The notes under the pieces: generated by a model
What the model was told of the DNA's origin: nothing
Databases searched by the model: none
The model's input: the letters and a program-made list of their open reading frames with translations, nothing else
Program-made: the position numbers and the translations under genes
NCBI RefSeq assembly: GCF_011492945.1
Contig: NZ_CP045119.1
Coordinates: forward strand, 3,844,001-3,908,000
Origin: Rubrobacter tropicus
Lineage (GTDB): Bacteria > Actinomycetota > Rubrobacteria > Rubrobacterales > Rubrobacteraceae
DNA length: 64,000 nt
Reading direction: 5' to 3'
Part shown: in pieces, positions 2,584 to 25,754 of the stretch
How the letters are laid out: the number at the start of each line of letters is the position of its first letter
How positions within the stretch are numbered: the stretch's first letter is position 1

Positions 2584-2595
2584 CCGAACCTTTCT

Positions 2596-4413
2596 CTAGA
2601 GGGTCACGGCACCCAGCGCCAGCAGCGCGAGCAGGACGGCGCCGCCCGCGACGGCGAGCAACAGCTCCTTGTGAACTAGCCCGGACTGCAAGACGCGGGC
2701 CCGGCCACCGAGGTCTCGCGTGCCCCTCACCAGCGCGGAGATGAGGCCGTCTATCCCCCGCTCGTCGGAGATCCGCGTCGCGTCCGCCAGGGCGAGGGAG
2801 CCCCTCCCCACGCCGAGGACGAGGGCGTGTATGCCGCGGTCGAACGCGTCGAGAGCTCTTGCGATCTCCATCGCCGGACGCGCAACGAGCCCGTCGAAGC
2901 CGCCGCCGAAGCGGAACCCGCGTCCGGCGGCGCCGCGTAGCGGGCCCAGGAGACGGCCGGCAGGGACGGACCATCCCAGCGGCAGCCCGACCAAGGCCAG
3001 CACGATGCCCAGGCCCGCGACCAGCAGGTCCTTCGGCACCTCTTCTCCGAGCAGTGCTGCGAGCGGTTCGAGCGCGAGGCCGAGCGTAGCGGCGAGGACG
3101 ACGAGCGTCGCCAGGCCCGCGCCCATCCATCCCGCGCCCGCGACCCGCTCGTCTCTTCCCTCGCCGCGCCACAGCAGCGCCAGCGCCCGGCCGACGTAGA
3201 CGGCGGTCAGGAGCGTTCCAGCCAGGAGCAGGGGAGCGAGGAGCCACGCGTGCGCGGACCCGAAGACGGCGGCCAGGACGGCGTCCTTCGACCAGAACCC
3301 GCTCAAGGGCGGCACGCCGGCGAGCGCCAGGCCCGCGAGGACGAACCCGGCGAAGGTCCATCGCCGCCCGCGGCCCGCGCCCTCCAGGTCGCCGAAGGCT
3401 GTGGAGCCGCGGGCGTGCTGGAAGACCCCGGCGCCGAGAAACAGGGAGCTCTTCATCGCCGCGTGGGCGATAAGGTGGACCGTCGCGGCCACAGGGGAGC
3501 CCGCGCCCACGGCCAGCAGCATGAAGCCGTACTGGCTTGAAGTGGAGGCCGCGAGCAGGCGCTTCAGGTCGCCCTCGCCGACGGCTATGAGCCCGGAGAC
3601 GATCGCCGTGACGCCGCCGAGGAGGCCGACGACGAGCAACACCGGGGGCGGGAGGAGCGGGGAGGTGCGGATCAGGAGTATGGCGCCCGCGGCGACCAGC
3701 GTCGCCGAGTGGAGCAGCGCCGAGACCGGGGTGGGGCCGACCATGGCGCTCTGGAGCCAGCCCTGCAGAGGCGCCTGGGCCGACTTGCCGGCCGCGGCCA
3801 GGAGCAGGAAGAGGCCCACGATTATCGCCGCCGTACCGCCAACGTCCAGGGTGGCCCGGATCCCGCTAGTCCCGGTCTGCGAGATAAGGACGAAGATCGC
3901 CCCGTAGAGGCCCAGGTCAGCAGACCTGGTATAGAGGAAGGCGCGCATGGCCGCGCCGCCCACGCCCGGCCGCTCGTAGTAGAAGCCAATCAGGAGAAAA
4001 GAGAGAAAACCTATAATCTCCCACGCCGCCAGCAGGAGCACCCAGTCTCCGGCTACCACCAGCGCCTGCATCGCCGCGGCGAAGAGGCTCATGCCGGCGA
4101 AGAAACGTGGCTTGCCACCCTCCTCTTTCATGTAGCCGACCGCGTACACCATCACGAAGAAGCTCACGACCGCGACGAACGTCGCGAGCACCGCGGTCAG
4201 GGGGTTGACCACGAGCCTGAGCGGCAGGTCGGGCAGACCCGGCAGCGTCGCGGAGTAGCGCCCCCCGTCCGAGACACGGACGAGCGTGACGAGAGCGCCG
4301 AAGAGTGCGACCCCCGTACCGAGTAGGGCAAACGCCGATGCACCGCGGCGCAGGAGGAGGATAACGGTAGCCGCCGCAAGCGGGCCGAGAATTGTCAGAG
4401 CCGCGATGGTCAT
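2596..4413 (-). CDS. nuoL: Complex I-like antiporter subunit NuoL
   Basis: 605 residues, at the short end for NuoL. The key glutamate is present in AAWEIIGFLSFLLIGF (about residue 132) and the channel lysine in GKSAQAPLQGWLQ (about 210), followed by the family signature GPTPVSALLHSATLVAAG. A further His/Lys pair is in LIAHAAMKSSLFLGAG. The C-terminal part ends in a membrane helix, consistent with the lateral helix anchor of NuoL but shorter. The start overlaps the nuoK stop by 4 nt, so translation is probably coupled. The residues needed for a proton half-channel look intact. Confidence 0.95.
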   Translation of the reverse strand: MTIAALTILGPLAAATVILLLRRGASAFALLGTGVALFGALVTLVRVSDGGRYSATLPGLPDLPLRLVVNPLTAVLATFVAVVSFFVMVYAVGYMKEEGGKPRFFAGMSLFAAAMQALVVAGDWVLLLAAWEIIGFLSFLLIGFYYERPGVGGAAMRAFLYTRSADLGLYGAIFVLISQTGTSGIRATLDVGGTAAIIVGLFLLLAAAGKSAQAPLQGWLQSAMVGPTPVSALLHSATLVAAGAILLIRTSPLLPPPVLLVVGLLGGVTAIVSGLIAVGEGDLKRLLAASTSSQYGFMLLAVGAGSPVAATVHLIAHAAMKSSLFLGAGVFQHARGSTAFGDLEGAGRGRRWTFAGFVLAGLALAGVPPLSGFWSKDAVLAAVFGSAHAWLLAPLLLAGTLLTAVYVGRALALLWRGEGRDERVAGAGWMGAGLATLVVLAATLGLALEPLAALLGEEVPKDLLVAGLGIVLALVGLPLGWSVPAGRLLGPLRGAAGRGFRFGGGFDGLVARPAMEIARALDAFDRGIHALVLGVGRGSLALADATRISDERGIDGLISALVRGTRDLGGRARVLQSGLVHKELLLAVAGGAVLLALLALGAVTL

Positions 4414-4718
4414 CCCTTGAGCTCCCTGGCCTCTTCCATCTCGACGGAACCCCTCGCCCGGAAGCGGCTGGTGGCTACACCGAAGCCGACGGCCATGTCG
4501 AGGGCCATCACGGTCATGATAATGAGGAAGAACGTCTGCCCCGGGTATTCGGTGGGATGCAGGAAGCGCCAGAAGGCGACGAGGTTGACCAGCGCCCCGC
4601 CGAGCATCACCTCGACGCCCATCATGATCATGACCAGGTTCGTCTGGCTCAGAGCTCCGTAGAGCCCTATCCCGAACATGACGGCCCCGACGACGAGCGC
4701 GACGTAGAGCGGCGTCAT
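4410..4718 (-). CDS. nuoK: Complex I-like subunit NuoK (MrpC-like)
   Basis: 102 residues with three membrane helices, the normal NuoK size. The conserved glutamate of helix 2 is kept (E36 in MMGVEVMLGG). The second conserved helix-3 carboxylate, usually Glu in an AAEAAVGLA-like motif, is Asp here (ALDMAVGFG, D74). The C-terminus has an unusually charged extension (ARGSVEMEEARELKG). Start and stop overlap both neighbours by 4 nt. The E-to-D change may matter because this residue belongs to the axis joining the quinone site to the antiporters. Confidence 0.93.
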   Translation of the reverse strand: MTPLYVALVVGAVMFGIGLYGALSQTNLVMIMMGVEVMLGGALVNLVAFWRFLHPTEYPGQTFFLIIMTVMALDMAVGFGVATSRFRARGSVEMEEARELKG

Positions 4719-5245
4719 TCTCCCTCCTCCTTTTGCTCCGTGGCGCCCCTCGTGGCCACCGCGACGGCCGTGGCCGCGATCATGGCCGTGAGGATGGTCA
4801 CCCCGGCGGTCTCGAAGATCAGCATCGAGCGCTCCATCAGGTCCAGACCTAGGCCCCTTAGCTGCGCCTGCGGACCGGGCGCGGATTTCGCTGGCGTTCC
4901 CCAGCCGGCGAGGAAGGCGACGCCTAAAGCCGCGAAGGCCCCGAGGACTCCGGCCACCTGCGAGACGCGCTTCTGGTGGGTCATGTCCATCTCGCCCAGG
5001 CCGCCCGGGTCCATCATGAACATGACCATGAAGATCGCCATGATCGACATCTCCGTCGCCATCATCATTATCTGCAACACACCGAGGAACTCGGCCTCCA
5101 TCGCGAGGAACATCGCGCCAAGGGCGGCCTGCGAGAACAGGAGCGCTAAAGCCGAGCGGACCATCGAATAGGTCCGGAAGACGACGACGGCGAACCAGAT
5201 CGCCGCGAGCCCGAAGAGGCCTATAAAGATGGTCTGCAGGATCAT
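4715..5245 (-). CDS. nuoJ: Complex I-like subunit NuoJ
   Basis: 176 residues beginning MILQTIFIGLFGLAAIWF, with five predicted helices as in NuoJ. The start at 5245 was chosen because longer readings run into unrelated, non-hydrophobic sequence. The helix that usually reads vQIIVYAGAIMVLF reads LQIMMMATEMSIMAIFMVMF, so the conserved Tyr is lost and a new Glu (E65) appears, next to an unusually Met-rich run. The last 40 residues are soluble and charged. In complex I this helix forms a pi-bulge important for coupling, so the changes suggest an altered mechanism. Confidence 0.88.
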   Translation of the reverse strand: MILQTIFIGLFGLAAIWFAVVVFRTYSMVRSALALLFSQAALGAMFLAMEAEFLGVLQIMMMATEMSIMAIFMVMFMMDPGGLGEMDMTHQKRVSQVAGVLGAFAALGVAFLAGWGTPAKSAPGPQAQLRGLGLDLMERSMLIFETAGVTILTAMIAATAVAVATRGATEQKEEGE

Positions 5246-5268
5246 CCGGTCACCAACCCTTACCAGGA

Positions 5269-6183
5269 CTACATCGACATCGAGGACGGCTCCCCGACTA
5301 CAAGAACGACGCCAACGTAGAGAATGTTCAGGAGCGCTAGGGGTATGCCTATCTTCCAGTACCAGGCCAGCATATGCTCCTCGCGCACCCGCGGCACGTA
5401 TCGACCCGCCACGAGCATCACGGCCGCCACCGCGAGCGTCTTGGCTGCGGTCCAGGCCCAGGGCGGCAGCACGGGACCGTTCCATCCGCCGAGGTAGAAG
5501 ACCGTGATGGCCGCCGCGAGCGTCACGACGAGGACCGCGCGGGCGAGGCGCACCACCGCCAGGCGCCAGCCGGTGTACTCTGCCATGGTCCCGCCGGCGA
5601 GCTCCCCGGGCGCCGTGGGTAGGTCGAACGGCGGCAGGAAGCACACTGACATCGCCGCCACAGAGAAGACCACGAAGCCGGCGGGCTGGTAGATCGCGTT
5701 CGGCAACGCGGCCTGGGACTCGACGATCGCCGTGGTCAGCAGCGACTCGGCGCGCATCGCCACGCCCACTATGGCCATGACGATCGGCATCGAGTAGCCG
5801 ATGAGCTGCCCCAGGAACCGGAAACCGCCGACCATGGCGTAGGCCCCGTCGGGCCCCCATCCGGCCATCACGAGCGCGACCATCACGTAGGCCAGCGCAG
5901 CGTTGACGAACAGGGCGCCCGTGGCGAGGTCCGCGACGATCAGGCCCGGAGCGAGCGGCAGCACGGCGGCCGCGAGGACCGCCGAGACGAGCAGCAGCAC
6001 CGGGCCCACCTCGAAAAAGATCCGGTCCGACTTCCTCGGGACGATCGACTCGCGCCCAAGGAGCGCGATCCCCGAGAGGAGCGGAGATGCGAAGCTGAGA
6101 CGCCCGGTGGTGGTCCAGGCTTCCAGTACGGCGACGAGGTACGCTCCCACGATCAGCGCGAAAACGACGATGACGGTGGTCAT
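5269..6183 (-). CDS. nuoH: Complex I-like subunit NuoH (divergent)
   Basis: 304 residues with eight or more helices, shorter than usual NuoH (about 330-430). The family loop is recognisable in PPFDLPTAPGELAGGTMAEY (about 185-203), matching canonical PFDLPEAEAELVAGxxTEY but with acidic residues lost. The normal quinone-channel motif SYEIP reads GYSMP (129-133), so the conserved Glu is Ser. The stop lies 24 nt before nuoJ; the start overlaps the upstream fusion gene by 4 nt. By homology it forms the membrane foot of the quinone cavity and the entry of the E-channel. The substitutions make normal quinone-driven coupling doubtful. Confidence 0.88.
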   Translation of the reverse strand: MTTVIVVFALIVGAYLVAVLEAWTTTGRLSFASPLLSGIALLGRESIVPRKSDRIFFEVGPVLLLVSAVLAAAVLPLAPGLIVADLATGALFVNAALAYVMVALVMAGWGPDGAYAMVGGFRFLGQLIGYSMPIVMAIVGVAMRAESLLTTAIVESQAALPNAIYQPAGFVVFSVAAMSVCFLPPFDLPTAPGELAGGTMAEYTGWRLAVVRLARAVLVVTLAAAITVFYLGGWNGPVLPPWAWTAAKTLAVAAVMLVAGRYVPRVREEHMLAWYWKIGIPLALLNILYVGVVLVVGEPSSMSM

Positions 6184-8063
6184 CGCGTCACTTCCCAGGG
6201 CGAGAGGTCGAGCGACGCGACCCCGGTTAGGGCATCGCCCAGCTCCCTTTGCTCGGTGACGGGTCCGATGAGCTCTATATGCCCCGTCGAGGGTGTGTGG
6301 AGCTCCACGACGACCACCTCGCCGCTTTCCAACGTCACCGCGAGCGTCGCCGCCCCGCGAGGCGTCTCCAGGGTGGCCTCTCCCCTTCCGGCGGATGCGT
6401 TCTCCGGAACGGCGCCGGAAGCGGATGCGCCTCCTACCTTCTCCACGAGTTGGAGGCTCCGCTCCGTCTCCGCCAGCCGCACCCGCAGCCGCGCGAGGGC
6501 ATCGCCCCCCTCAACGACGACCGGCTCGAAACCTAAAGACCGGTACGCGTCCTCGCCCACGCGAGCGTCGATCGACCGTCCGTCGGCCCGCGCCACCGGC
6601 CCTGACGCCCCATCGAGGTCCGGCACCACGCCGACCCCATCCAGCTTGCGCCGCAGGAGCGGCGTCCGCTCCAACCGACGGACGAGTCGTCGCACCTCCG
6701 TGCTGATACGCGCGGTCCCCTCGTTGCCCGTCCGCAGGAGGGCGAGCTGCAAGACTTCAGCCCGCTTCGCGAGCCAGGAGTAGCCAATCAGGTAGCCAAA
6801 GCCCGCCATCCAGTTCAGATGACTCACCGCCCGCTCGCGCTCGAGCGCCCCCACCCGAGCCAGCGTCACCTCATCGGCCGGCTTCACACCAGTCGCGCTC
6901 TCGACGGCGCGCATCGCCAGCAGACGGTAAGAGACCGGCGCGAGCGGGTCGAGCTCCGCGAACCGTTCCACGAATTCCCCGATAGGGCCGCGCGGATCCT
7001 CACGGCTCTGTACGGCCACGGTCGAGGCCGCCTTCGCCTCCGCCACTGTGTCGCCGTCGAGGGTGAGGATCAGCGAGAGCCCGCCCGGCAGCCCCTGAAA
7101 CAGCGGCCCGAACGGCGCTTCGACCCACTCCATCTGCAGCCCGTCGGAGCTCCTCGGCGTCCCCTCAGTCATCTCGACCATCGACATGAACTCCATATCC
7201 CCGTGGTCCATGCCACCGTGGTCCTCGAGGGCATGGTCTTCCCCGTCGTGGTCCGTGCCGCCGTGTCCGCCGTCGTGATCGGCGCGTCCCTCGTGGCCGT
7301 GCGCCCCGCCGTGTTCGACGGACCCTTCGGTGTGCTGTGCCCCTTCATGCTCCGCTTCGATATCCTGGCGGGAGTGTCCCGCACGCCCTTCTCCCGATTC
7401 GGTGGCCTCCGCGCCGTGGTCTGTATCTTCGTGTTGTACGTGGCCTTCGTGGTCGGCGTTCTCTGCCGCGCCGGCTTCGGCGGTCTCACGCGGGACGAGG
7501 TCCATCCCGCACCTGGGGCACGTGCCGGGCTCGCCCTGGACGACCTCCGGGTGCATCGGGCAGGTGTACTCGGTCCTGCTCCGGAGCGCGGCGGGCTCGA
7601 AAGGTTCGGCCGTCGGGCCGAAGGATCCCTCCGCGAACCGGCGTCGCAACTTGGCCACGCCGGCAACCAACTCGTCCTGATCCGGGCCCACGGACACATC
7701 CGGTACGGGAAGCGGCAAGACGTCTTCCGCGCCGACTGCGAGCACCGCCCGCGGCCGGGGCATCTGGGCGTAGGCGACAGCCGCCGCCTCCCTCAAGCTC
7801 TCCGGCACCTGGCCCACCACAACCAGCACGTTCGCGTGGCGCGGGGTGGGAGAGAAGTCCAGGCCTGCGGCCCGCGGATCCAGGGCGCGGGCGCGTACGA
7901 CCTCGGGCCCGGGGACGAAGAACGCGGAGAGATCCCGCGCCAACGTCCGGGAGACCAGCCTCCCGAGCCAAGACACCCGCGCCCCCCGAGAACCGGAGAG
8001 CGAAGCGTTCGCGGAGACGCTCGCTCGAGAACTCACTGCCGTCTCAGCGCTCCCTGGCTCCAT
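6180..8063 (-). CDS. NuoB/NuoD-like fusion with inserted heavy-metal-binding domain
   Basis: 627 residues from the ATG at 8063, which overlaps the nuoA end by 31 nt; a GTG at 7976 is an alternative start. Residues about 30-150 resemble the C-terminal part of NuoB (DFSPTPRHANVLVVVGQVPE). Residues 166-190 are a CPMHP/CPRCGM heavy-metal-binding domain as found in copper efflux proteins. Residues 203-290 hold about 16 His, then Met-rich GDMEFMSMVEM. Residues 290-627 resemble NuoD (RERAVSHLNWMAGFGYLIGY; end SLDLSPWEVTR). The only cysteines are the three of the metal domain, so the N2 cluster ligands of NuoB are absent, as is the GxxHRGxE quinone motif of NuoD. It replaces the whole redox arm. Function unknown; a metal-responsive role is inferred. 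Confidence 0.85.
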   Translation of the reverse strand: MEPGSAETAVSSRASVSANASLSGSRGARVSWLGRLVSRTLARDLSAFFVPGPEVVRARALDPRAAGLDFSPTPRHANVLVVVGQVPESLREAAAVAYAQMPRPRAVLAVGAEDVLPLPVPDVSVGPDQDELVAGVAKLRRRFAEGSFGPTAEPFEPAALRSRTEYTCPMHPEVVQGEPGTCPRCGMDLVPRETAEAGAAENADHEGHVQHEDTDHGAEATESGEGRAGHSRQDIEAEHEGAQHTEGSVEHGGAHGHEGRADHDGGHGGTDHDGEDHALEDHGGMDHGDMEFMSMVEMTEGTPRSSDGLQMEWVEAPFGPLFQGLPGGLSLILTLDGDTVAEAKAASTVAVQSREDPRGPIGEFVERFAELDPLAPVSYRLLAMRAVESATGVKPADEVTLARVGALERERAVSHLNWMAGFGYLIGYSWLAKRAEVLQLALLRTGNEGTARISTEVRRLVRRLERTPLLRRKLDGVGVVPDLDGASGPVARADGRSIDARVGEDAYRSLGFEPVVVEGGDALARLRVRLAETERSLQLVEKVGGASASGAVPENASAGRGEATLETPRGAATLAVTLESGEVVVVELHTPSTGHIELIGPVTEQRELGDALTGVASLDLSPWEVTR

Positions 8064-8395
8064 CCGTAGAGGAGCCCTAAGAACAGGATCGCCAGGAAGA
8101 CGCCCATGTCCAGCAGGGCGACCAGGCCGAGTTCCCTGTAGACTACGGCCCACGGGTACATGAAGGCCATCTCCATGTCGAAGGCCAAAAAAAGCAGGGC
8201 GTACCCGTAGTAGCGCACGTGGTAGCGTGCCCACACGGGGTCCCTGTGAAGCTTGCCGGAGGTCGCAGGCACGTCCTTACCCTCCTCCTCGCGCGGCTTG
8301 CCGAGCGTGCGGGAGATCGCGCCCAGACACAGCGCCAGCCCCACCGTGGCCACGGCCATGCCGAAGAGGAGCGCGTACTGCTGCAGAGATTCCAT
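8033..8395 (-). CDS. nuoA: Complex I-like subunit NuoA
   Basis: 120 residues, normal size for NuoA, with three membrane helices. The conserved block YHVRYYGYALLFLAFDMEMA is the NuoA signature (canonical RYYxxALlFiiFDvEva), and the acidic residues after it are kept. The start at 8395 has a good ribosome-binding site (aggaagg, about 8402-8408). It is the first gene of the operon and is directly followed by the B/D fusion. A GC-rich motif shared with the csoR upstream region lies about 85 nt before it. Confidence 0.93.
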   Translation of the reverse strand: MESLQQYALLFGMAVATVGLALCLGAISRTLGKPREEEGKDVPATSGKLHRDPVWARYHVRYYGYALLFLAFDMEMAFMYPWAVVYRELGLVALLDMGVFLAILFLGLLYGWSQGALRRQ

Positions 8396-8476
8396 GACCC
8401 GCCTTCCTAGAGATCCGCTCCGGCGACGCCCGGCCCTGCGGACGCCTCGAACCGCGCCGTCCGCCGCAACATCGAG

Positions 8477-8493
8477 TTTATGCCCCTGCCCCC
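8477..8493 (-). promoter_or_regulatory. Conserved upstream motif before the nuo-like operon
   Basis: On the minus strand this reads GGGGGCAGGGGCATAAA. The same 17-mer with a single change (GGGGGCAGGGGTATAAA) lies upstream of csoR at 11905-11921. It sits about 85 nt before the nuoA start, a plausible regulatory position. The G-run plus TAT resembles a half CsoR site (GGGGTAT), so shared copper control is inferred, not shown. Confidence 0.4.
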
Positions 8494-8579
8494 CACCTCT
8501 CCAACCCCGCGAAGGTTCCCGCGGGACAAAGTGGTCCCTTTGGGCCAGGCCGCTTGCCGGACGAGGGGGTCGGTGGCCG

Positions 8580-9707
8580 TCATGCGGCGGTCGGCTTTCC
8601 GGGCGACGTTTCGGAGGACGGCGGCGCGTCTGAAGACCCCGCGAGGAAGGCCACGAGCATTCCGACGGCGCCGGCGAGCACGACGGTCCCGGCCCAGAGT
8701 TCCACGGGCCACGAGAGGCCGCCGGTGAGGGCCAGGGCGGCAAAGTACAGCGCATAGAGGCCGGCGGGCGCGGCGAAGGCGAACAGGCGCGGGGCGCCGG
8801 ATCGGCCGGCGGCCGGGTAGCGGAGCAGGACGTCAGAGATCAGGCCACCCAGAACGGCGACGGGGACGAACAGGTAGTACCCGTGCGGGAAGACCGAGGG
8901 GACGAGCGCGAGAGAGAAGACGAGCGTGGCGGCCCCAAAGGGCAGCACCCAGCGCCGCGCGGCCAGGAGCATGGCGCCCATCAGGATCCCAGCCTGCAGC
9001 AGGATTCCGGTGACCCCCAGCGCCCGTCCCAGGCCCTCGGTGGCGGCGTAGACCGGCCCGTCCTGGGATCCGCTCTCTGCTGGTACGACGGAGAAGTCGA
9101 ACCGTGCGAGGTTGAACTGGCTATCGGGCCACGGGATACCGAAGGGGTTGGCGTACGCGGTAAAGAAGACGAGCACAGAGACGGTCAGGCCCAGCGACAG
9201 GAGCGCAGGAAGCGGGACGGCTCCCGAACGGCTCCCCGGACGCAACCACGCGGCCCGTAGAGGGCCGCTGGCCACGAGCGTGGCGCCGGCGGCCAGGAGC
9301 AGGTGCGTGGGGCTCAACAAAGCCTCCAGTCCCACCTCTATCCCGAAAAAGACGTGCCAAAGCATGTCCCCCACGCCGCCGGCGGCGAAGGCCGCCACGC
9401 CGAGCGCGGAGAGACCGTATCCATCAGGCAACGCCCCGCGCCAGGAGACCCCCCGCGCGTGGTTACGGATCGCGGCCCAGGACAACGTCACGGCCGCGGC
9501 AAGGAGGCCGGCGTAGAGGATAGCGTGCCACGGGGTAAAGAACGTCTCAAGCGTCGCGGGGAGGTTATCGTGCGCCCAGGCGTCAAGCCACGCGCCACCG
9601 ACAAAGAGAATTGAGGCGGCGGCCACCGCCCAGTCCAGGCCGGTGGCGCCCGTACCGCGTGCGGCCTTTGTGCCGGCAGCCCCGACGATAGAAGTATCCA
9701 TGTCCAT
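8580..9707 (-). CDS. Polytopic membrane protein of unknown function
   Basis: 375 residues with about nine to ten hydrophobic segments beginning near GLDWAVAAASILFVGGAWLD. Histidines lie near the membrane faces (AWAHDNLPATLETFFTPWHA), and a soluble Ser/Pro-rich tail ends the protein. No family could be named from sequence alone. It lies between the multicopper oxidase gene upstream (72-nt gap) and the nuo-like operon downstream (184-nt gap), all on the same strand, so it may serve copper or redox handling at the membrane. That role is only positional inference. A start Met cluster (MDMDTS) follows a ggaacggag-type binding site. Confidence 0.75.
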   Translation of the reverse strand: MDMDTSIVGAAGTKAARGTGATGLDWAVAAASILFVGGAWLDAWAHDNLPATLETFFTPWHAILYAGLLAAAVTLSWAAIRNHARGVSWRGALPDGYGLSALGVAAFAAGGVGDMLWHVFFGIEVGLEALLSPTHLLLAAGATLVASGPLRAAWLRPGSRSGAVPLPALLSLGLTVSVLVFFTAYANPFGIPWPDSQFNLARFDFSVVPAESGSQDGPVYAATEGLGRALGVTGILLQAGILMGAMLLAARRWVLPFGAATLVFSLALVPSVFPHGYYLFVPVAVLGGLISDVLLRYPAAGRSGAPRLFAFAAPAGLYALYFAALALTGGLSWPVELWAGTVVLAGAVGMLVAFLAGSSDAPPSSETSPGKPTAA

Positions 9708-11370: not shown

Positions 11371-11748
11371 CTAGACCCTCAGGAACCGCTCGACCGCTGC
11401 GGTCAGCTCCTCGACCTTCTCGTCGGCTTTCTGCCGGTCCCCGCTCTCGATGGATTCGCGAACGCAATGCTCGACGTGGTCCCTTAGGATGATCGTGCCG
11501 ACCTTCTCCAGGGCGGAGACGACGCTGGCGACCTGGGTGAGGACGTCCACGCAGTAGGCCTCCTCTTCGACCAGCCGTTGTAGCCCGCGCACCTGCCCCT
11601 CGATGCGCCTCAGGCGGTTCCTGAGCTTCTCCTTGTCCCCCTCCTTTATGTACCCGTGGGGAGCGCCGGCCGTCTCGATCCCCCGCTCGTTTCCCTCTAC
11701 TGTCTCCATGCCTTCGTCCCTTTCCCTAGACATCCGTCGCCTCCGCAA
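11371..11748 (-). CDS. csoR: CsoR-family copper-sensing repressor (first copy)
   Basis: 125 residues. The core KLRNRLRRIEGQVRGLQRLV and the copper ligands C66, H91 and C95 match the C-H-C spacing of CsoR (25 and 29 residues apart), so a Cu(I) sensor rather than RcnR or FrmR is likely. The first 30 residues are an unusual charged extension, and translation may begin later, near HGYIKEGDKEK. The protein ends in the motif AAVERFLRV, identical to that of the second CsoR at 18545-18829. It precedes the multicopper oxidase gene (117-nt gap) and probably controls it and the neighbouring copper genes. Confidence 0.92.
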   Translation of the reverse strand: MRRRRMSRERDEGMETVEGNERGIETAGAPHGYIKEGDKEKLRNRLRRIEGQVRGLQRLVEEEAYCVDVLTQVASVVSALEKVGTIILRDHVEHCVRESIESGDRQKADEKVEELTAAVERFLRV

Positions 11749-12560: not shown

Positions 12561-12773
12561 TCAGGACTTGAGGGCGTAGCCGGCCTCCTCGACGGCTCCC
12601 CTGAACTGCTCGTCTGTGACCTTGCCCTCCTCGTATGTGACCTCGACATCACCGGTGTTGCGGTCCGCCCTTGCCGCCCGCACGCCGTCGAGCTCGTCGA
12701 GCGCCTCCTGGACGCTCATCTCGCAGTGCCCACACGTCATGCCCTCAACCTTCAGCACCGTCGTCGTCGCCAT
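12561..12773 (-). CDS. copZ: Copper chaperone CopZ (HMA domain)
   Basis: 70 residues, one heavy-metal-associated domain with the metal motif GMTCGHC (C14, C17). The start at 12773 follows an ideal ribosome-binding site (ggaagga). A family Cu(I) chaperone that delivers copper to CopA. It lies 79 nt downstream of copA with a CsoR-like palindrome in the gap, and is followed by a terminator, so it can be transcribed alone as well as with copA. Confidence 0.95.
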   Translation of the reverse strand: MATTTVLKVEGMTCGHCEMSVQEALDELDGVRAARADRNTGDVEVTYEEGKVTDEQFRGAVEEAGYALKS

Positions 12774-12820
12774 CCTTCTCTCCTTCCGTTCCAAGGGTCT
12801 ATCCGCGGTCCATTTTACCC

Positions 12821-12837
12821 ATACCCCTTATGGGTAT
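12821..12837. promoter_or_regulatory. Putative CsoR operator upstream of copZ
   Basis: ATACCCCTTATGGGTAT is a 17-bp inverted repeat with arms ATACCC and GGGTAT around CTTAT. The form matches known CsoR operators (TACCC...GGGTA). It lies 48 nt before the copZ start and 16 nt after the copA stop. Confidence 0.7.
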
Positions 12838-12852
12838 CAACTATTCGGTCTC

Positions 12853-15800
12853 TCAACTTTGCGGGTACCACTCGGTCCTCCACTGCTCAAGTTGCCGGAT
12901 CTCGCGCTCCTGCTCCTCGACGATGCCCCTGGCGAGCTTGCGGATCTCCGGGTTCTCGCTCTCGTCGAGGACCACGTTCGCCATGTCTATGGCGGAGCGG
13001 TGGTGCGGGATCATGGCGTCTATGAAGGCCCTGTCGAAGGGACGTTGCCCAGCGAGCTGACCGGGATCCGTCATACCCATCGCTCCCATGCCGCCGGCGT
13101 TCGAAGGGATGGCGGAGGAGCCGAACTCGCGCTCTCTTATGTCCTTCAGGTCCTCGATCTCGGGCCGTTGAGAGGAGACGATGCCCCTGGAGAGGTCGAG
13201 GATCTCGGGCCGCTGGGACTCATCCAGGGCCACCTCGGCCATGTCGATCGCGCCCTCGTGGTGCGGCACCATCGCGTCGATGAAGCGCTCGTCGGAGTAG
13301 CGGCCGTTCTGGACGAGCATCTCGCGGGCCATGCCGCCGGAACCGTCCGCGTTCGCCGCCGCTCCCAGGCCGCCGCGGGATCCGCCCGTCTCCGACGGCA
13401 TCTCCATCCCGGGCATCGCGTCCCGTCCACCGTCCATGTTGCGGTGCGGTCCCGGGGCCAGGAAGAAGGCCGCGGCGCCGATGGCAAGGGCTACCACGGC
13501 GATGCCGCCGAGGTAGGCGACCTCGCCGACGCGGGCGCGCAGTGGCGGGTGCAGGATCTCTTCCGCGCTCTTCGGCCGTTCGAAAGAGCGGAGGCGGAGG
13601 GCGTTCGTCACCACGCTTACCGAGCTCATCGCCATCGCCGCCGCGGCCAGGATCGGGCTCAGAAGCACACCGAAGAACGGGTAGAGGACGCCCGCGGCCA
13701 CCGGGATCAGGGCGACGTTGTAGGCGAAGGCCCAGAAGAGCCCCTGCTTGATCTTGCCGACCGTCTTTCGCGAGAGCGAGATCGCGGCGACGATGTTCCT
13801 GAGATCCCCCCCGATCAGGGTGATGTCGGAGGCGGCCATCGCGACGTCGGTGCCGGTGCCTATTGCGACGCCGAGGTCGGACCCGGCGAGGGCGGGGGCG
13901 TCGTTGATGCCGTCCCCGACCATCGCCACGGTCTTGCCCCGACTCTGGAGCTCGGCCACCTTCGCCGCTTTCTCCTCCGGCAGCACCTCGGCCAGGACAC
14001 GATCCCGGCCTATCCCGACCTCGGCGGCTATCGCCTCGGCGGTGGCGCGGTTGTCGCCGGTGAGCATCCAGGCTTCGAGGCCTAAAGCCCCAAGCTCCGC
14101 GACCGCCTCGCGCGATTCCGGCTTGAGGGTGTCGGCGACGGCGATGAGGCCCGCCCACTCGCCGTCCACGGCGACGTACATCGGCGTAGCCCCGCCCCGA
14201 GCCAGCTCCCCGGCACGCCCCACGAGGCCGTTCGGTACGATGCCCGCCACGTCCATCATCGCGCGGTTTCCTATGAGGACCTCACGCCCCTCAACCCTCG
14301 CCCTGACGCCTTTGCCTGTCATGGACTCGAAGGTGGAGGCTCTTGGAAGCTCAAGGCCCCGCTCCTTGGCCCGCGCCACGATCGCCTCGGCCAGGGGGTG
14401 CTCGGAGCCGACCTCCGCGGCGGCGGCCAGCCGCAACAGCTCCTTCTCGGGGACGCCGTCAGATGGTACGACCTCTGTCACCGCAGGCTTGCCCCGCGTT
14501 AGGGTTCCCGTCTTGTCGAGGACGATGGCGTCTATCTTGCGGGTCATCTCCAGCGCCTCGCCCCCCTTAACCAGCACGCCGTTCTCGGCGGCCTTGCCGG
14601 TGCCGACCATGATCGCCGTCGGCGTCGCGAGGCCCAAAGCGCACGGGCAGGCGATGATGAGCACGGCGATGGCCGCCGTCAGCGCGAAGATGGGCGAGGG
14701 GCCGAAGACGAGCCAGACCGCGAACGTCAGCACCGCCAGCACGAGCACGGCCGGCACGAAATAGCTGGAGATGGTGTCCACCATCCGCTGCATCGGCGCC
14801 TTCGAGCCCTGCGCTTCTTCGACCATGCGCACGATCTGGGCGAGCGCCGTCTCACTACCGACCTTCTCTGCCCGCATGACGAACCCGCCGGTCTTGTTGA
14901 GCGTAGCCCCTATGACCTTGTCGCCCACGTCCTTCTCCACCGGCAAAGACTCGCCGGTCAGCAGGCTCTCGTCCAGCGCGGAGGCACCCTCCATCACGAT
15001 GCCGTCCACGGGCACCTTCTCACCGGGACGCACCCGGACCAGGTCCCCGACCCGCACGTCCTCGACCGGCACGTCTACCTCCGCACCGTCCCGGATAACC
15101 CTGGCCGTCCTCGCCCGCAAGCCCATGAGCGCCTTGATCGCCGCCCCGGTCTGCTTCTTGGCCCGCGCTTCGAGCCAGCGACCCAGCAGTACGAGGCCGA
15201 TAACGATGGCCGAGACCTCGAAGTACAGGTAGAACGGGAAGCCCCACGCCGCGCTGAGCTCGGGCCACAGCGTCACGAAGGCGCTGTAGCCGTACGCCGC
15301 GCTCGTGCCAACGGCGACCAGCGTGCTCATGTTCGTCCCGCCGTGCCTCGCCGAAGTCCAGGCAACCTTGTAGAACGTGGACCCGGCCCAGAACTGCACG
15401 ATGGTCGCCTGGATCAGAAGTAGTGGGGCGACGACCTCCATGCCGGGTCCGAAAGGCAAATACATCTCGGCCATCATGATGACACCGAGCACGAGGCTGA
15501 CGATCCACTTGTTCTTCAGATCCTTTAGCTCCGCCTCGCGTTCCCGCTCTCTCGGGTCCGCCTGCGCGTCGGCCGGCCGAGCGGAAGGTGTCTGCCGCGG
15601 CTCTGCGATCTCGCCGACCTTGTAACCGGCCTTCTCCACGGCGGCCCGCAGGTCCTCGACGCCGGCCCCCGCCTCAGGGTCGTAGACGACCTTGGCCTTC
15701 TCGGTCGCCAGGTTGACGGTCGCGTTCTCCACGCCCGGCACCTTCAGGAGCGCCTTCTCAACCCTGCCGACACACGAGGCGCACGTCATCCCCTCCACCG

Positions 15801-16122
15801 GCAGCAGCACCTCGCCGTCGGCGCCCCCGGCGTCATGGGCCCGCGACACGGGCGGAGCAGCAACGGGGAGCTCACGCACCCGGTAGCCCGCCTTCTCGAT
15901 GGCCGACTTCATCGCCCGTGGGTCGGCGATCTCCGGGTCGTAGGAGATTCGCGCCTTCTCGGTGGCGAGGTTGACGCTCGCCTCCTCGACGCCGTCCACC
16001 TTGCCCAGCGCCTTCTCAACCCTGCCGACACACGAGGCACACGTCATCCCTTCTACCGGGATCTCTAACGTGCTCCGTTCGCGCTCTCCAAGCACCGCTT
16101 TCTCCTCTTTTTTCTCGTACAT
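12853..16122 (-). CDS. copA: Cu(I) P1B-ATPase CopA fused to a C-terminal DUF305 domain
   Basis: 1089 residues from the ATG at 16122. Two HMA domains have GMTCASC (C28/C31 and C114/C117). The ATPase core has the membrane copper site CPCALG, phosphorylation loop [19 protein letters not shown] and [11 protein letters not shown], all intact, so it is a complete Cu(I) exporter. After the normal end of the ATPase an extra membrane segment ([12 protein letters not shown]) leads into about 190 residues of DUF305, with the paired motifs [15 protein letters not shown] and [15 protein letters not shown]. Ordinary CopA is about 750-850 residues, so this is an in-frame fusion. The DUF305 part closely resembles the separate lipoprotein at 62513. 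Its predicted outside position suggests it receives exported copper. Confidence 0.95.
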
Positions 16123-16187
16123 ACTATACCCCTCCACCCCATGCTACCATGGATGGCGGGTCGAGCGCCGCTTGCGTCTCGCCGGCT

Positions 16188-16538
16188 CTAGAGACCGTCT
16201 CTCGGGATGGTACGCGCGGTCGTGGCCGCTTCCCTGGACGCGGGCTCCACCGCCACCCCTCCCTTGACCAATCGCTCCAGCCGCGAGGCCTTGAGCCTCA
16301 GCCGTCGGGCCTCGGAGATCAGCCGTTCCGCGAGATCATCGTCGGTGCCGGCGGAGGCGCATCCGAAGCACACGAGACCCAGACGCCCTCCCCCGATGCG
16401 ATGGGCCACTAGACGGGTCTGGCCGTTCTGGACGCCGAAGTTCCGGCCGCACAGCGCGCATGGCCCCATCAAGCAGATCGTCCCCACGTCCCCTTCGGCC
16501 CGGATCTCGACGGCCGTCTTCTCTGCGACCCTGCTCAT
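16188..16538 (-). CDS. Small protein with two CxxC pairs, unknown function
   Basis: 116 residues from the ATG at 16538. Two cysteine pairs, CALCGRNF and CFGCASAG about 28 residues apart, suggest a zinc or other metal ribbon, followed by a helical Arg/Leu-rich stretch (ERLISEARRLRLKASRLERL). The gene begins 2 nt after the glutaredoxin gene ends, so they are probably co-transcribed, and lies before copA on the same strand. The ribosome-binding site is weak (ttaggga). No family recognised. Confidence 0.6.
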   Translation of the reverse strand: MSRVAEKTAVEIRAEGDVGTICLMGPCALCGRNFGVQNGQTRLVAHRIGGGRLGLVCFGCASAGTDDDLAERLISEARRLRLKASRLERLVKGGVAVEPASREAATTARTIPRDGL

Positions 16539-16540
16539 CC

Positions 16541-16795
16541 CTAACCCACACTTGGAAGGCCGGCCCTGGCGAACGCGCGGTCGATGGTCGGCGGGTGGAA
16601 CCCCACGACCCAGGTGTCCCCGATCTTTAAGGCAGGCACGGCCGACTGGCCGGTCGCCTCGACCATCTCTTCGGCCGCCGCTGCGTCGCGCTCCACGTTG
16701 ACCTCCCTGAACGAGAGGTTTTTGTTCGCCAGGTACTCCTTGGCGCGTCGGCACCAGGGGCAGGTGGACGTGGTGAACACCAGCACTTCGGCCAT
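16541..16795 (-). CDS. Glutaredoxin/mycoredoxin-like protein
   Basis: 84 residues with a thioredoxin fold and the redox-active motif TCPWCRRAK (C12, C15), plus the cis-proline motif SAVPALKIGD. The ribosome-binding site aaggagaag precedes the ATG. Size and motif fit the NrdH/mycoredoxin group, which reduces disulfides or mycothiol mixed disulfides in Actinobacteria. Its place just upstream of a metal-ribbon gene and copA suggests a role in thiol protection during copper stress, by inference. Confidence 0.9.
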   Translation of the reverse strand: MAEVLVFTTSTCPWCRRAKEYLANKNLSFREVNVERDAAAAEEMVEATGQSAVPALKIGDTWVVGFHPPTIDRAFARAGLPSVG

Positions 16796-16862: not shown

Positions 16863-18101
16863 TCAGCAGGCCACGACGCCGACCACGGCCTCCGTGCAGG
16901 AGTATCCGGGCGCGCAGGAGCAGACGTCTGAGCCGCACCCGCAGGCGGGCGGACCGGTTTCGTTGTCCCCCATCTTCTCGCGCACTAGGCCGGCCAGGAT
17001 CTCGACCCCGCGCCGCGCGAGGCGCGGCTCCGCGAAGGAGAAGCTCAGGCGCAGGGCGTTCCTTCCCTCCGTACCGCCCCACCCCCCGGGATAGAAGTCC
17101 GCGCCGGGGACGTAGGCCACGCCGCGTTCGGTCGCCTCGGGCAGCATCCCCGCCGCGTCGATACCCTGGGGTAGCGTCACCCAGACGAAGAACCCCCCTG
17201 AGGGGCTCGTCCAGGAGACCCCCTCCGGCATGAACTCGCCGAGGGCGCCGAGCACGGCGTCCCGACGTTTCCGGTAGCGTCGCCCGAGCCTTCCCAGGTA
17301 GGTCTTCCATTCACCGCTCGCGAAGTAGGCGGCGGTCACGGTCTGAGAGAGGACCGAGGGGCCGAGGTCGGCGCCCTTCCTGGCGGCACGCATCGCGCCG
17401 AGGATCTCGGGGTGGGCGTGGATCCACCCGAGCCTGACCCCGGGCGCGAAGACCTTGGAGAAGCTGCCCAGGTAGACCACGCGCTCGGGTCCCCCGCGCT
17501 CGCGCATCTCCAGGGCGGCCAGGGTCGGCACGGCGTCCCCCTCGTAGCGCAGGAGGCCGTAAGGGTTGTCTTCGAGGATCAGCGCGTCGTGCTCACGCGC
17601 GATCTCGAGCAGCTCCCGCCGCCGCTCGAGCGCCATCGTCGCGCCGGTCGGGTTCTGGAAGGTCGGTACGACGTAGATGAACTTGGCCCGGTAGCCGGCA
17701 CGACGCTCGTGCGAGAGGATCTCCCGGACGGCCTCGACGTCGAGGCCCCGACGGTCCACAGGCGCCGTCATGACACGCGGCCCGTACGAGGAGAAGGCCT
17801 GAAGGGCCCCGTGGTAGGTTGGCGATTCGATCAGGACGAGGTCGCCCTCCTCCAGGAACGCCCTGCCCGCGAGGTCGAGACCCTGTTGCGCCCCGCTGGT
17901 CACCGCGACGTGCTCCGCGCCGACCGGCGTGCCCTCGGCAGTCATTACTTCGGCGACCGTCTCCCGCATCACCCCCGTACCGTCGGTGGAACCGTACTGC
18001 AGCGCCGCAGCGCCGTCCCCGACCACGGCCGAGGCCATCTCCCGTAGCGTCTCTTCCCCGAAGATCGACGTGTCGGGGTGCCCGCCAGCCAGAAACACCA
18101 C
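16863..18101 (-). CDS. PLP-dependent class I aminotransferase with Cys-rich tail; N-terminal frameshift likely
   Basis: 412 residues in the main frame. Fold-type I aminotransferase of the LysN/2-aminoadipate group: NPTGATM, DNPYGLLRY, and the Schiff-base lysine in GSFSKVFAPGVRLGW (K216). The frame opens inside the normal N-terminal region (GHPDTSIFGEE). Upstream, in another frame (about 18115-18180), are the residues FDPLFAGRVRRTGVREAVR expected at the N-terminus, so one base seems to be missing near 18117. The last 35 residues are not part of the family and hold six cysteines (CGCGSDVCSCAPGYSC and a terminal C), like a small metal-binding tail. It is divergent from the second csoR, with a CsoR-like site between. 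Confidence 0.85.
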   Translation of the reverse strand: MVFLAGGHPDTSIFGEETLREMASAVVGDGAAALQYGSTDGTGVMRETVAEVMTAEGTPVGAEHVAVTSGAQQGLDLAGRAFLEEGDLVLIESPTYHGALQAFSSYGPRVMTAPVDRRGLDVEAVREILSHERRAGYRAKFIYVVPTFQNPTGATMALERRRELLEIAREHDALILEDNPYGLLRYEGDAVPTLAALEMRERGGPERVVYLGSFSKVFAPGVRLGWIHAHPEILGAMRAARKGADLGPSVLSQTVTAAYFASGEWKTYLGRLGRRYRKRRDAVLGALGEFMPEGVSWTSPSGGFFVWVTLPQGIDAAGMLPEATERGVAYVPGADFYPGGWGGTEGRNALRLSFSFAEPRLARRGVEILAGLVREKMGDNETGPPACGCGSDVCSCAPGYSCTEAVVGVVAC

Positions 18102-18287
18102 GCCGGGCTTCGGCGCACGGCCTCCCGCACCCCCGTGCGCCGCACGCGACCCGCGAAGAGGGGGTCGAAAACGCCCGCGACGCTACCTCTCTGGAACACC
18201 ACCGTTATCCTCCTCTTCGACCTCGGCCGGACCCGACACGTGGGCCAACGGCACTCCATTACCTAACCATTTCTCAAGCACTATACC

Positions 18288-18304
18288 ATACCCCCCTATA
18301 GTAT
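18288..18304. promoter_or_regulatory. Putative CsoR operator between the aminotransferase gene and csoR2
   Basis: ATACCCCCCTATAGTAT is 17 bp long and shares ATACCCC and the end TAT with the copZ operator, at the same length. It also sits within a wider dyad ACTATA (18280) to TATAGT (18297). It lies in the intergenic stretch 18260-18544, where no gene is seen (18305-18490 shows nothing else). Confidence 0.6.
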
Positions 18305-18524
18305 TTCAAGAGAGACTTTGCCCCTGCTGCCTCGCGGTGATCGCTTCGAACGCAGCTCCACCTCTGTGCCAAGGGGCGTCGTAGCTGGCCTCCGGGTTCG
18401 TCGGGGCTTCGGTGTCTACAGGACGCAAGAAGACCTGGTCGGAACCGCGCGACGAAGCTGGGCGGTCCCTGCCAGGCGGGGTTTGCCCAGGGGGTATGAT
18501 TGCTGAATACTTGCCATTGTCTAG

Positions 18525-18541
18525 ATATCCCGGGGGTAAAT
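18525..18541. promoter_or_regulatory. Putative CsoR operator at the csoR2 start
   Basis: ATATCCCGGGGGTAAAT has a palindromic core TATCCCGGGGGTA, the classic form of a CsoR site, and ends 3 nt before the TTG chosen as the csoR2 start. This suggests autoregulation. A further GGGGGTATGAT half-site lies at 18490-18500. Confidence 0.55.
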
Positions 18542-18544
18542 GGG

Positions 18545-18829
18545 TTGCAGGGGTACATAAAGGCGCAGAACAAGGAGAAGCTGGCCCGGCGTTTGGACCG
18601 CATAGAGGGCCAGGTGCGGGGCGTCAAGAGGATGGTGGAGCGTGAGGCCTACTGCATAGACATCGTCACGCAGATCACCAGCCTCGTCGCCGCCTCCGAC
18701 AAGGTCGCCTCCATGCTGATAAAGGACCACGTGGAGCACTGCGTGAGGGGCGCGATGCGGGACGAGGATAAGGCGGACGAGAAGATCGCCGAGCTCACCG
18801 CCGCCGTCGAGCGGTTCTTGCGGGTTTAG
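18545..18829 (+). CDS. csoR: CsoR-family copper-sensing repressor (second copy)
   Basis: 94 residues from the TTG at 18545; an upstream TTG at 18500 would add 15 residues of doubtful sequence. The ligands C37, H62 and C66 have the CsoR spacing, and the core KLARRLDRIEGQVRGVKRMV is closely related to the first CsoR. The small size is typical for CsoR, unlike the extended first copy. It is followed by a small membrane protein and a copper-storage protein on the same strand, which it probably regulates, and is divergent from the aminotransferase gene. Confidence 0.9.
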   Translation: MQGYIKAQNKEKLARRLDRIEGQVRGVKRMVEREAYCIDIVTQITSLVAASDKVASMLIKDHVEHCVRGAMRDEDKADEKIAELTAAVERFLRV

Positions 18830-19382: not shown

Positions 19383-19793
19383 ATGGTCACTTACGCGCGG
19401 CAAATCATCCAGAACAGCCCCAATCAGGCCCTCACGGACGACGTCGTGCTGGTCGAGTGCATAGAGGCGTGCTTCGACTGCGCCCAGGCCTGTACCGCCT
19501 GCGCCGACGCCTGCCTCGGCGAGGGGGACCCGGCCGGCCTGGTCAAGTGCATCCGCGACGACCTCGACTGTGCCGACATCTGCGTCGCCGCGGGCAGAGT
19601 GCTCTCGCGTCAGGCGCAGCCGAGCGCTGCGGTAACCCGGGTGGTCCTCGAAGCCTGCGCGGCGTCGTGCAGGCAGTGTGGGGATACGTGCGCCGAGCAC
19701 GCCGAGCATCACGAGCATTGCCGGGTGTGCATGGACGCCTGCCGCCAGTGCGAGGTCGCCTGCAACAACGTCCTCTCCGCCCTGGCCACTTAG
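19383..19793 (+). CDS. Four-helix-bundle copper-storage-like protein (Csp/DUF326)
   Basis: 136 residues. Start ATG at 19383 follows aaaggag. Cysteines are spaced along helices in CxxxC pairs (CIEACFDCAQACTACADAC, CIRDDLDCADIC, CAASCRQCGDTC, CRVCMDACRQCEVAC), the hallmark of Csp proteins that store many Cu(I) ions inside a helical bundle. No signal peptide is visible, so it should be cytosolic (Csp3-like). It is downstream of csoR2 and the LQVFRL membrane protein gene on the same strand. Confidence 0.93.
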   Translation: MVTYARQIIQNSPNQALTDDVVLVECIEACFDCAQACTACADACLGEGDPAGLVKCIRDDLDCADICVAAGRVLSRQAQPSAAVTRVVLEACAASCRQCGDTCAEHAEHHEHCRVCMDACRQCEVACNNVLSALAT

Positions 19794-20795: not shown

Positions 20796-20815
20796 GGCCG
20801 TCTACCTTCCCGCCG

Positions 20816-20859
20816 GGCCGGCGGGAGACGGGGTTGCGCGTTCCCGTCTCCCGCCGGCC
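20816..20859. terminator. Perfect 17-bp hairpin between cbtA and the dedA-like gene
   Basis: Arms 20816-20832 (GGCCGGCGGGAGACGGG) and 20843-20859 pair perfectly around a 10-nt loop. It lies between the stop of cbtA and the dedA-like gene, both on the minus strand. There is no T-run, so it is a possible terminator or RNA-processing hairpin rather than a certain terminator. Confidence 0.55.
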
Positions 20860-20988
20860 TCTCGACTCAAAGCGCGAGAAGCCGGGTTCAACACGGTGCC
20901 CGAAAGCGGGCGAGACGACCTAAGGGATCGCCGACCCGGCGCTCGAAGGCCGGTCTCACCTTCTCCGCCCGTCTCCGGAGCGCCACCT

Positions 20989-21677
20989 TCACGAGACCTC
21001 TCTCCGGGCAGCTCGTTCGCAGAGGGCTCCGAAGAGCGCATCGAGCCCGGTCCAGAAGACGAGCAGCGTGCCCAAGGAGGAGAGCCGGAAGTCCCACAGC
21101 AGGCCGGCCGGGAACCCGCCGGGGTCCGCGCTGTCCGGTAGCACGGCGAAGAGCACCAGCACGCGGAGACCGCGAGCACGAGCCCCACCGCCACGTGGCG
21201 GACGGGGGCGCTCACGCCCCTACCACGGAGGGCCCTGGCCGCGTCCCAGGCCGCCAGCACCGTCAGGAGGGAGAGCGCCACCATCGCGAGGTAGGCGCCG
21301 GTGCGCCCGACGATGGTGGCCGGGTCGCCCACGGTCGGGGGGTTAGCCGGGTCCTTCAGGAAGGGTATGAGGATCGCCCCGGTGAAGATCGCGGCCGCCA
21401 GCGAGAGGCTTCGGGTCCAATCGCTCTCCGAGACCAGGTGCCCGCGAAAGTGGGCGAACACCAGCGCGAACAGCCCTCCGACGAACGATCCTGCGAGCCC
21501 CGTGACGAAGAAGAGCCCGACCTTCTGGGCCATCCGGCCGACGAGTTCGGCGTCGGGCTGACCCCCGGCCGCGCCCTCCAGCTCGACCGCCCGGTCCAGG
21601 GCCGACTCCCCGAAGAGGAGCGCGAAGAGCCCCGCCAGAAGGTCCGCCGCGAGCCCCCGACGCAGGTACGCCGCCAC
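20989..21677 (-). pseudogene. cbtA: Cobalt transporter subunit CbtA, frameshifted
   Basis: GTG start at 21677. The first frame gives a CbtA-like membrane protein (AYLRRGLAADLLAGLFALLF, then four more helices) up to VGLVLAVSA. It then loses the family sequence. The expected C-terminus (LFAVLPDSADPGGFPAGLLW, LSSLGTLLVFWTGLDALFG) continues in another frame from about 21157 to the TGA at 20989. One base is missing near 21157. With this base restored the protein would be about 229 residues, full length for CbtA. By family it is part of a cobalt uptake system with CbtB. A sequencing error is as likely as a true mutation. Confidence 0.8.
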
Positions 21678-24413: not shown

Positions 24414-25754
24414 TCAGCCGGCGAAGAAGGTCTGGTAGAGCAGGAAAACGTTCAGGGAGACGATGAGCGCCACCACGACCGCGGCTATCGTCGTGGTGAG
24501 GCGATGGTTGACCAGGGCGCCCATCACGTTACGGTTGCGGCAGAAAATTAGGAGCGGGATCAAGGCGAACGGGATGCCGAAGGAGAGCACCACCTGGCTT
24601 ATGACCAGCGAACGGCTGGGGTTGAGGCCCACGGCCAGGACGATCAGGGCCGGGGTCATCGTTATCAGGCGCCTGAGCCACAGCGGGATGCGGCGGTTTA
24701 TGAAACCCTGCATGACGACCTGCCCGCTCAGGGTGCCGACCGAGGAGCTCGAGAAGCCGGACGCGAGCAGCGCCACCCCGAAGAGGGTCGCCGAGAGGCC
24801 GCCGACCTGCTCGCCCAGGGCGACGAAGGCCTTGTCTATGTCGCCCACCCCCGTGAGGCCCTCCGCGTTGAAGAGGGCGGCGGCCATGATGAGCATGCTG
24901 GCGTTGATCGTCCCGGCTATGGCCATGGCGATCACCACGTCCACGAGCTCGAATCGGAAGATCTTTTTCCTCTCCGCGTCGGTGCGGCCCACCACCCTCC
25001 TCTGCGTGAGGGCGGAGTGGAGGTAGATGACGTGGGGCATCACCGTGGCGCCGAGGATGCCCGCCGCCAATAGCACGCTGTCGGTGCCCGCGAACTGCGG
25101 GGTGAAGAGCCCGGCCAGTATCCTGTCCCCCTCCGGCTGGGCGTAGAACATCTGGAACGCGAAGGAGAGAACTATCACCCCCACGAGCGCTGCGATGCCC
25201 GCCTCCAGCGGCCTGAACCCCCGCCGCTGGAGCTCCAGGATGGCGAAGGCCCCGACCGCCGTCAGGAGCCCCGCCGGAAAGAGCGGGATGCCGAAGAGGA
25301 GGTTCAGGGCGAGGGCAGCACCTATGAACTCGGCGAGGTCGGTCGCCATCGCGATCACCTCGGCCTGCACCCACAAAAACAGGGTGACGGGCCTCGGGAA
25401 GCGCTCGCGGCAGACCTCGGGTAGGTTCTTGCCCGTCGCGATACCCAGCTTGGCCGACATGGACTGTATGAGCATCGCCATCAGGTTCGCGGTAAGGATC
25501 ACCCACAAGAGCATGTACCCGTAGCGCGCCCCGCCCGCGATGTTGGTTGCGAAGTTGCCCGGGTCGACGTAGGCCACCGCCGCGATGAACGCAGGACCCA
25601 AGAACGGCCACAACCGCGCCAGCCCCCTGCGCTTGCCCCTCAAGGAGGCGTGCGCCGCCCTCGCCGTGGCACTCTCGCCCGGCAGGACGCTCTCGACTAT
25701 CCCGTTGCCGTTGTTCTCCTTTGGGTGCTCGCTCACGCACTCCCTTTCCGGCAT
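24414..25754 (-). CDS. mntH: Nramp-family Mn(II)/divalent metal transporter MntH
   Basis: 446 residues with about 11 helices. The metal-site motifs are present: DPGNFATN in helix 1 and the conserved MPHVIYLHSAL in helix 6; the consensus transport motif region AALFNAEG follows. The N-terminus is a charged cytoplasmic tail. It is divergent from an mntR-like regulator gene, and a DtxR-type palindrome overlaps its promoter. By family it imports Mn(II) (or Fe(II)) with protons. Repression by manganese through MntR would be expected, but the regulator here is broken. Confidence 0.95.
   Translation of the reverse strand: MPERECVSEHPKENNGNGIVESVLPGESATARAAHASLRGKRRGLARLWPFLGPAFIAAVAYVDPGNFATNIAGGARYGYMLLWVILTANLMAMLIQSMSAKLGIATGKNLPEVCRERFPRPVTLFLWVQAEVIAMATDLAEFIGAALALNLLFGIPLFPAGLLTAVGAFAILELQRRGFRPLEAGIAALVGVIVLSFAFQMFYAQPEGDRILAGLFTPQFAGTDSVLLAAGILGATVMPHVIYLHSALTQRRVVGRTDAERKKIFRFELVDVVIAMAIAGTINASMLIMAAALFNAEGLTGVGDIDKAFVALGEQVGGLSATLFGVALLASGFSSSSVGTLSGQVVMQGFINRRIPLWLRRLITMTPALIVLAVGLNPSRSLVISQVVLSFGIPFALIPLLIFCRNRNVMGALVNHRLTTTIAAVVVALIVSLNVFLLYQTFFAG

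Follow-up and report, generated by a model that had tools for sequence, protein, structure and literature searches.

The window, a 64,000-nucleotide stretch of the Rubrobacter tropicus genome, contains an aminotransferase gene that heads a CsoR-type copper cluster and is followed on the same strand, in this order, by genes for a glutaredoxin-like protein, a 116-aa protein, a CopA-DUF305 fusion and a CopZ-like protein (Table 1). Relatives of the 116-aa protein were present in only two other genomes of the 41 searched, and the DUF305 part, fused to CopA in the window, matches as a separate piece beside CopA in three of the compared stretches (L127, L131 and L135).

Table 1. The aminotransferase gene, its upstream region and the neighbouring copper genes, in window coordinates.
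Feature	Position	Strand	Basis
Second CsoR gene	11371-11748	-	
CopZ-like HMA protein	12561..12794	-	Homology to CopA HMA repeats and to CopZ-like ORFs beside relatives' copA
CopA-type P-type ATPase, two HMA domains and C-terminal DUF305 fusion	12853..16137	-	Domain search
116-aa protein with CALC...CFGC, family not recognised	16188..16538	-	Pfam hits all below cut-off
Glutaredoxin-like protein, next gene downstream	16541..16795	-	Domain searches
Aminotransferase ORF, 412 aa, GTG start as listed	16863..18101	-	PF00155, KAT-II/LysN-like
Tail, residues 378-412, six Cys, predicted disordered	16866..16970	-	Translation, pLDDT, codon usage
Frame-change stretch, 16 nt short versus core relatives	18102..18118	-	Segment lengths, codon score
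Severed N-terminal arm, other frame, GTG start	18119..18202	-	Match to relatives, segment length, codon score
Shine-Dalgarno-like GAGGAGG	18209..18215	-	Read directly; 6 nt before GTG 18202
Promoter-like site, TTGAAA-18-TATAGT	18280..18309	-	Promoter motif in front of gene
CsoR-type operator, TAC-N9-GTA with G-tract	18288..18304	.	Inside 18-bp promoter spacer
CsoR/RicR-like repressor, divergent	18500..18829	+	PF02583, E 6.2e-26

No aminotransferase or glutaredoxin match was found in the 13 stretches compared with this cluster, which cover the copA genes of relatives, the other copA genes of the same genome and the homologues of the 116-aa protein. The cluster annotated on the Rubrobacter marinus plasmid NZ_CP045122.1 comprises CsoR, CopA, a cation transporter, pieces of a multicopper oxidase and complex I genes, with no aminotransferase. 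Among the stretches examined, the arrangement of a copper cluster with an aminotransferase is private to this genome. Elsewhere in the window, Complex-I-like genes (read by eye) lie beside a multicopper oxidase at 1111-8755 (-), the same mix as annotated on the R. marinus plasmid, and the ORF at 6180-8234 has an inserted motif of 26 residues and a His-rich stretch. A Cys-rich, copper-storage-like DUF326 protein is encoded beside csoR (19386-19793, +), and the same region holds the metal transporter genes CbtA-like (20802-21677, -) and Nramp-like (24414-25754, -).

The first-pass annotation had placed the aminotransferase gene next to a csoR gene and had seen a CsoR-like site before it, and both features are confirmed. 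The divergent gene at 18500-18829 (+) carries the PF02583 domain, its best NCBIfam model being RicR at 88.8 bits, below the cut-off of 175, and the operator at 18288-18304 reads ATACCCCCCTATAGTAT. TAC-N9-GTA with a G-tract is the form given for CsoR operators in PMC3902906. The window has two TACCCC-N6-GTA sites, at 12822 and 18289, against 0.19 expected, and the longer ATACCCC-N6-GTAT occurs at five places genome-wide against 0 for the reversed control. One of the five precedes copZ, another the aminotransferase gene, and a third directly follows a CopA-like ATPase gene; around the remaining two, nothing matched the window copper genes. The locus thus presents, as in a CsoR regulon, a repressor nearby and a G-tract TAC-N9-GTA operator that overlaps the promoter. 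Because this operator sits in the promoter-like spacer and the motif is rare across the genome, CsoR control of the aminotransferase gene is likely, and the copper link of the gene is stronger than the first-pass annotation could know. A second CsoR-type operator, ATACCCCTTATGGGTAT, lies at 12821-12837 between copA and copZ, and outside the window a Met-rich membrane-protein-like ORF (L230, 889-1479, -), whose start falls just below a CsoR-type operator, is a possible further member of the regulon.

The ORF at 18101..16863 (-) is a class I/II aminotransferase, KAT-II/LysN-like, by its PF00155 domain (residues 21-338, E 6.8e-36 in the Pfam profile search) and its fold. Its solved relatives include the KAT-II-like enzymes of Pyrococcus and Thermococcus and LysN of Thermus, the best alignment covering residues 2-377, and the predicted model, confident in the aminotransferase body, matches 3aov, 1wst, 1x0m and LysN with TM values of 0.85-0.86. 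The 412 codons hold no internal stop. Across 38 sequences, the invariant columns S215, K216 (presumably the PLP lysine of the family) and 22 others are retained in the ORF, as are 31 of the 32 strongly conserved columns; a conserved Ser at residue 3 is lost. The domain, the fold and the invariant columns are therefore shared with the KAT-II, LysN and PH0207 class I aminotransferases, whereas an N-terminal arm out of frame, a six-Cys tail and a CsoR-type operator set the window ORF apart from them. In nearly all alignments the body stops at about residue 377, which bears out the earlier view of an ordinary aminotransferase end followed by 35 extra residues (378-412).

The expected N-terminus had also been noticed upstream in another frame, correctly: from GTG 18202, frame A encodes VVFQRGSVAGVFDPLFAGRVRRTGVREA, which matches FDFLYATRVKG of the relatives, and the upstream codon score is 0.075 (coding-like) in this frame against -0.28 in the frame of the body. 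Measured from the FD codon up to where the LAGG block begins, the segment spans 84 nt in each of the 30 core relatives against 68 nt in the window, and the spacing between a conserved Arg and the GG block is held in 98 of 108 homologues, the other 10 being sequences that did not fit the search expression (eight rows were excluded from this count: the window's own, partial ones and those of three distant paralogues from the same genome). The first-pass annotation had allowed the frameshift to be either real or an error. A real deletion of 16 nt is the simpler explanation, because undoing a one-base error would still leave five codons missing from an otherwise fixed length, so that such an error accounts poorly for the gap. 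Nor are frame breaks widespread in the assembly: when a sample of 59 genes was checked against 578 proteins from relatives, one showed a frameshift and two contained stops. Programmed frameshifting was also considered and rejected, as inspection by eye revealed no slippery site and the 16 missing nucleotides do not fit it. On these alignments and spacings, a real deletion probably severed the N-terminal arm, so that the in-frame junction of arm and body that characterizes KAT-II/LysN-like enzymes is absent from the window ORF. In aminotransferases the N-terminal arm is, according to PMC6400995, crucial to the assembly of the dimer and to access to the active site. Inspected by eye, the sequence before GTG 18101 shows no good ribosome site, and the ORF as it stands would yield at best an arm-less, probably catalytically poor protein.

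The one close paralogue in the same genome (L002, G000:C1:1084400-1085515), a core aminotransferase of the bacterial family, shares 58% identity with the window ORF over residues 2-378. Matches with E <=1e-100 were obtained in 32 of 60 relatives, the own genome counted, with identities of at most 58% save for the window itself, and matches at E 1e-85 in 198 of 396 genomes of the phylum, with at most 4 candidates scored per genome. In the 58-row tree, the window copy branches as sister of the whole set of 32 core copies in the family. A recent duplication of a core copy was discarded, since the window copy falls outside all of them, albeit on a long branch (1.22) whose placement is unsure. The core copies, unlike the window copy, end in Arg/Gly/Ser-rich tails almost without Cys and have no window copper genes beside them: no match to these genes was found in the flanks of L002-L116 (up to 1.5 or 6 kb). 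The window gene is probably best read as a deeply diverged version of the family's housekeeping KAT-II/LysN-like aminotransferase.

The tail contains six cysteines, as first claimed, at positions 387, 389, 394, 396, 402 and 412, forming two CxC motifs, and in the predicted model most of residues 383-412 have a pLDDT below 50. A homologue search for the tail, which the first-pass annotation had proposed, found no Cys-rich end in 121 homologues: the last 35 residues hold no Cys in 102 of them, one in 18 and two, the maximum, in one (the window's own rows and the partial rows L013 and L086 were excluded). The apparently Cys-rich extensions of Thalassospira were dismissed, as tblastn had run past the gene end, where L068 has a stop, and they are gone from this count. 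Within the same genome, sampled over 25 stretches, none of 247 genes has more than two Cys in its last 35 residues and none of 245 in-frame read-throughs more than four. The Cys count alone is no proof, since it could arise in random frames: 10 of 2244 six-frame open stretches from the window and five others, the window ORF included, reach at least six Cys in their last 35 residues. Codon usage is the stronger test, and by it the tail resembles genuine coding DNA and not read-through: its synonymous codon score exceeds those of 64% of the 247 real gene ends and of 98% of the 245 read-throughs, giving odds of about 12:1 for coding against read-through (a rough estimate from the means and spreads of the codon scores). 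Third-position GC is 0.89 in both body and tail. A plain read-through of a lost stop is thus made less likely.

Searches with the tail returned no match among NCBIfam models (E up to 1), metallothionein included, or in Pfam (E up to 10). The genome has no second copy of the tail DNA, the next-best match spanning 31 nt (E 0.012), and no relatives were found in 39 genomes of the class, in 396 genomes of the phylum (by protein search and a degenerate DNA pattern), in plasmids, in IMG/VR or in PDB, where only the window itself and chance matches appeared. The best foreign match (G034, L118, E 3.2e-5) was rejected, since it is out of frame with a longer same-strand ORF that reads as a DUF1232-like protein. 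The first-pass annotation would have given up the tail if it were absent in all homologues and a frame error; the former holds for all homologues read, but the latter is not borne out, the tail being coding-like and sharing the reading frame of the body.

Six thiols are about as many ligands as a small Cu(I)-thiolate cluster uses. With these thiols, two CxC motifs and a CsoR-type operator in the promoter-like site of the gene, Cu(I) binding by the tail, which the first-pass annotation had put forward, remains plausible. No aminotransferase with a Cys tail in a CsoR operon was found in the literature searched. According to PMC10470581, the RicR regulon of Mycobacterium tuberculosis places a multicopper oxidase, the Cu(I)-thiolate metallothionein MymT and cysK2 under a CsoR-family repressor. 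MymT is a separate small protein, whereas the thiols of the window sit on the enzyme itself, at the end of a 412-aa ORF and not in a stand-alone metallothionein, and there is no sequence match between the two. The window, too, encodes CsoR proteins, together with a multicopper oxidase and, like cysK2, a PLP-dependent enzyme. The RicR regulon may thus be regarded as a parallel in layout, not as a family tie.

We tentatively favour, at somewhat less than even confidence, a reading in which the gene is a deeply diverged, copper-controlled copy of the aminotransferase that acquired a tail for Cu(I)-thiolate binding and has since been damaged at its 5' end. A rise in Cu(I) would release CsoR from the operator and allow transcription of the gene, and the flexible tail, with six thiols and two CxC pairs, would hold Cu(I) like a small metallothionein capping an otherwise ordinary enzyme; in the present allele, where the frame of the N-terminal arm appears lost, any remaining use would come from the tail. 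We prefer this reading because an operator of CsoR form sits in a promoter-like spacer and its motif is found at five places in the genome against 0 in the control, because the codon usage of the tail is gene-like while the invariant columns are kept and none of the 121 homologues has a Cys-rich end, and because the model combines a confident body with a disordered tail and the N-terminal segment is 16 nt shorter than in 30 of 30 core relatives. Against it, the tail occurs in no second genome searched and matches no Pfam or NCBIfam model, the codon test discriminates only about 12-fold, and the 5' break and the branch of 1.22 also fit loss of function. A bolder version, in which the tail and not catalysis was kept by selection after loss of the arm, so that a newly evolved tail would have made a metal buffer of a copper-repressed metabolic PLP enzyme and a metallothionein would have been born by C-terminal extension, seems to us rather unlikely.

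Loss of function is itself the core of an alternative that we consider nearly as likely as the favoured reading, namely that the gene is decaying, the 16-nt deletion having ended production of the enzyme and the tail being a functionless leftover or a chance extension. In favour of decay are the frame broken near the start, the lack of a good ribosome site seen before GTG 18101, the long branch and the lost Ser at residue 3, as well as a tail that the searches found in this genome alone, whereas homologues normally carry little or no Cys at their ends. Against it stand 412 codons without a stop, retained invariant columns, gene-like codon usage in the tail and an intact operator and promoter-like site. 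The frame break could instead be an assembly error hiding a full, active enzyme with an N-terminal segment naturally five codons shorter and a tail serving as a metal or thiol site. In its favour, the rest of the ORF is intact and the missing length equals 1 modulo 3, but the segment length kept in 30 of 30 core relatives, the Arg-to-GG-block spacing of 98 of 108 homologues and the small number of broken genes among the 59 tested make it an unlikely explanation.

Two further alternatives accept the tail and differ over its role. The Cys pairs could form disulfides reduced by the adjacent glutaredoxin (16541-16795), which would make the tail a redox handle and not a copper site; the glutaredoxin-like gene does lie directly downstream and has no match in the 13 copA and 116-aa-homologue stretches, but this evidence comes from the neighbourhood, and the CxC spacing and the CsoR-type operator suit Cu(I) at least equally, so that we regard this role as quite improbable. 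The tail could also be, as the first-pass annotation suggested, a peptide substrate, in the form of a RiPP-like precursor of a copper chelator carried on the enzyme. PMC3621798 reports that some methanobactin operons (MbnA/MbnN) hold the PF00155 transaminase MbnN, and these operons share with the window the presence of copper, a Cys-bearing peptide and a PF00155 aminotransferase at one locus. Unlike them, the window genome gave 0 matches to PF05114 (MbnB/DUF692) in a search that was positive in 2 of 14 control genomes, none of the neighbouring genes examined was recognised as coding for a maturation enzyme, and the tail is fused behind an enzyme instead of forming a small separate gene. The suggestion of a peptide substrate thus finds no support here, the chance that the tail is such a precursor being very slight.

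The favoured reading matters for how metal sites arise. If the tail does not bind Cu(I), the locus would serve as a warning that a Cys-rich end and a copper neighbourhood are insufficient to call a metal site, above all where the start of the gene is broken. If it does, the gene would be an instance of a housekeeping-type enzyme that came under copper repression and acquired a metal-binding module, which would offer a testable route to new metallothioneins.
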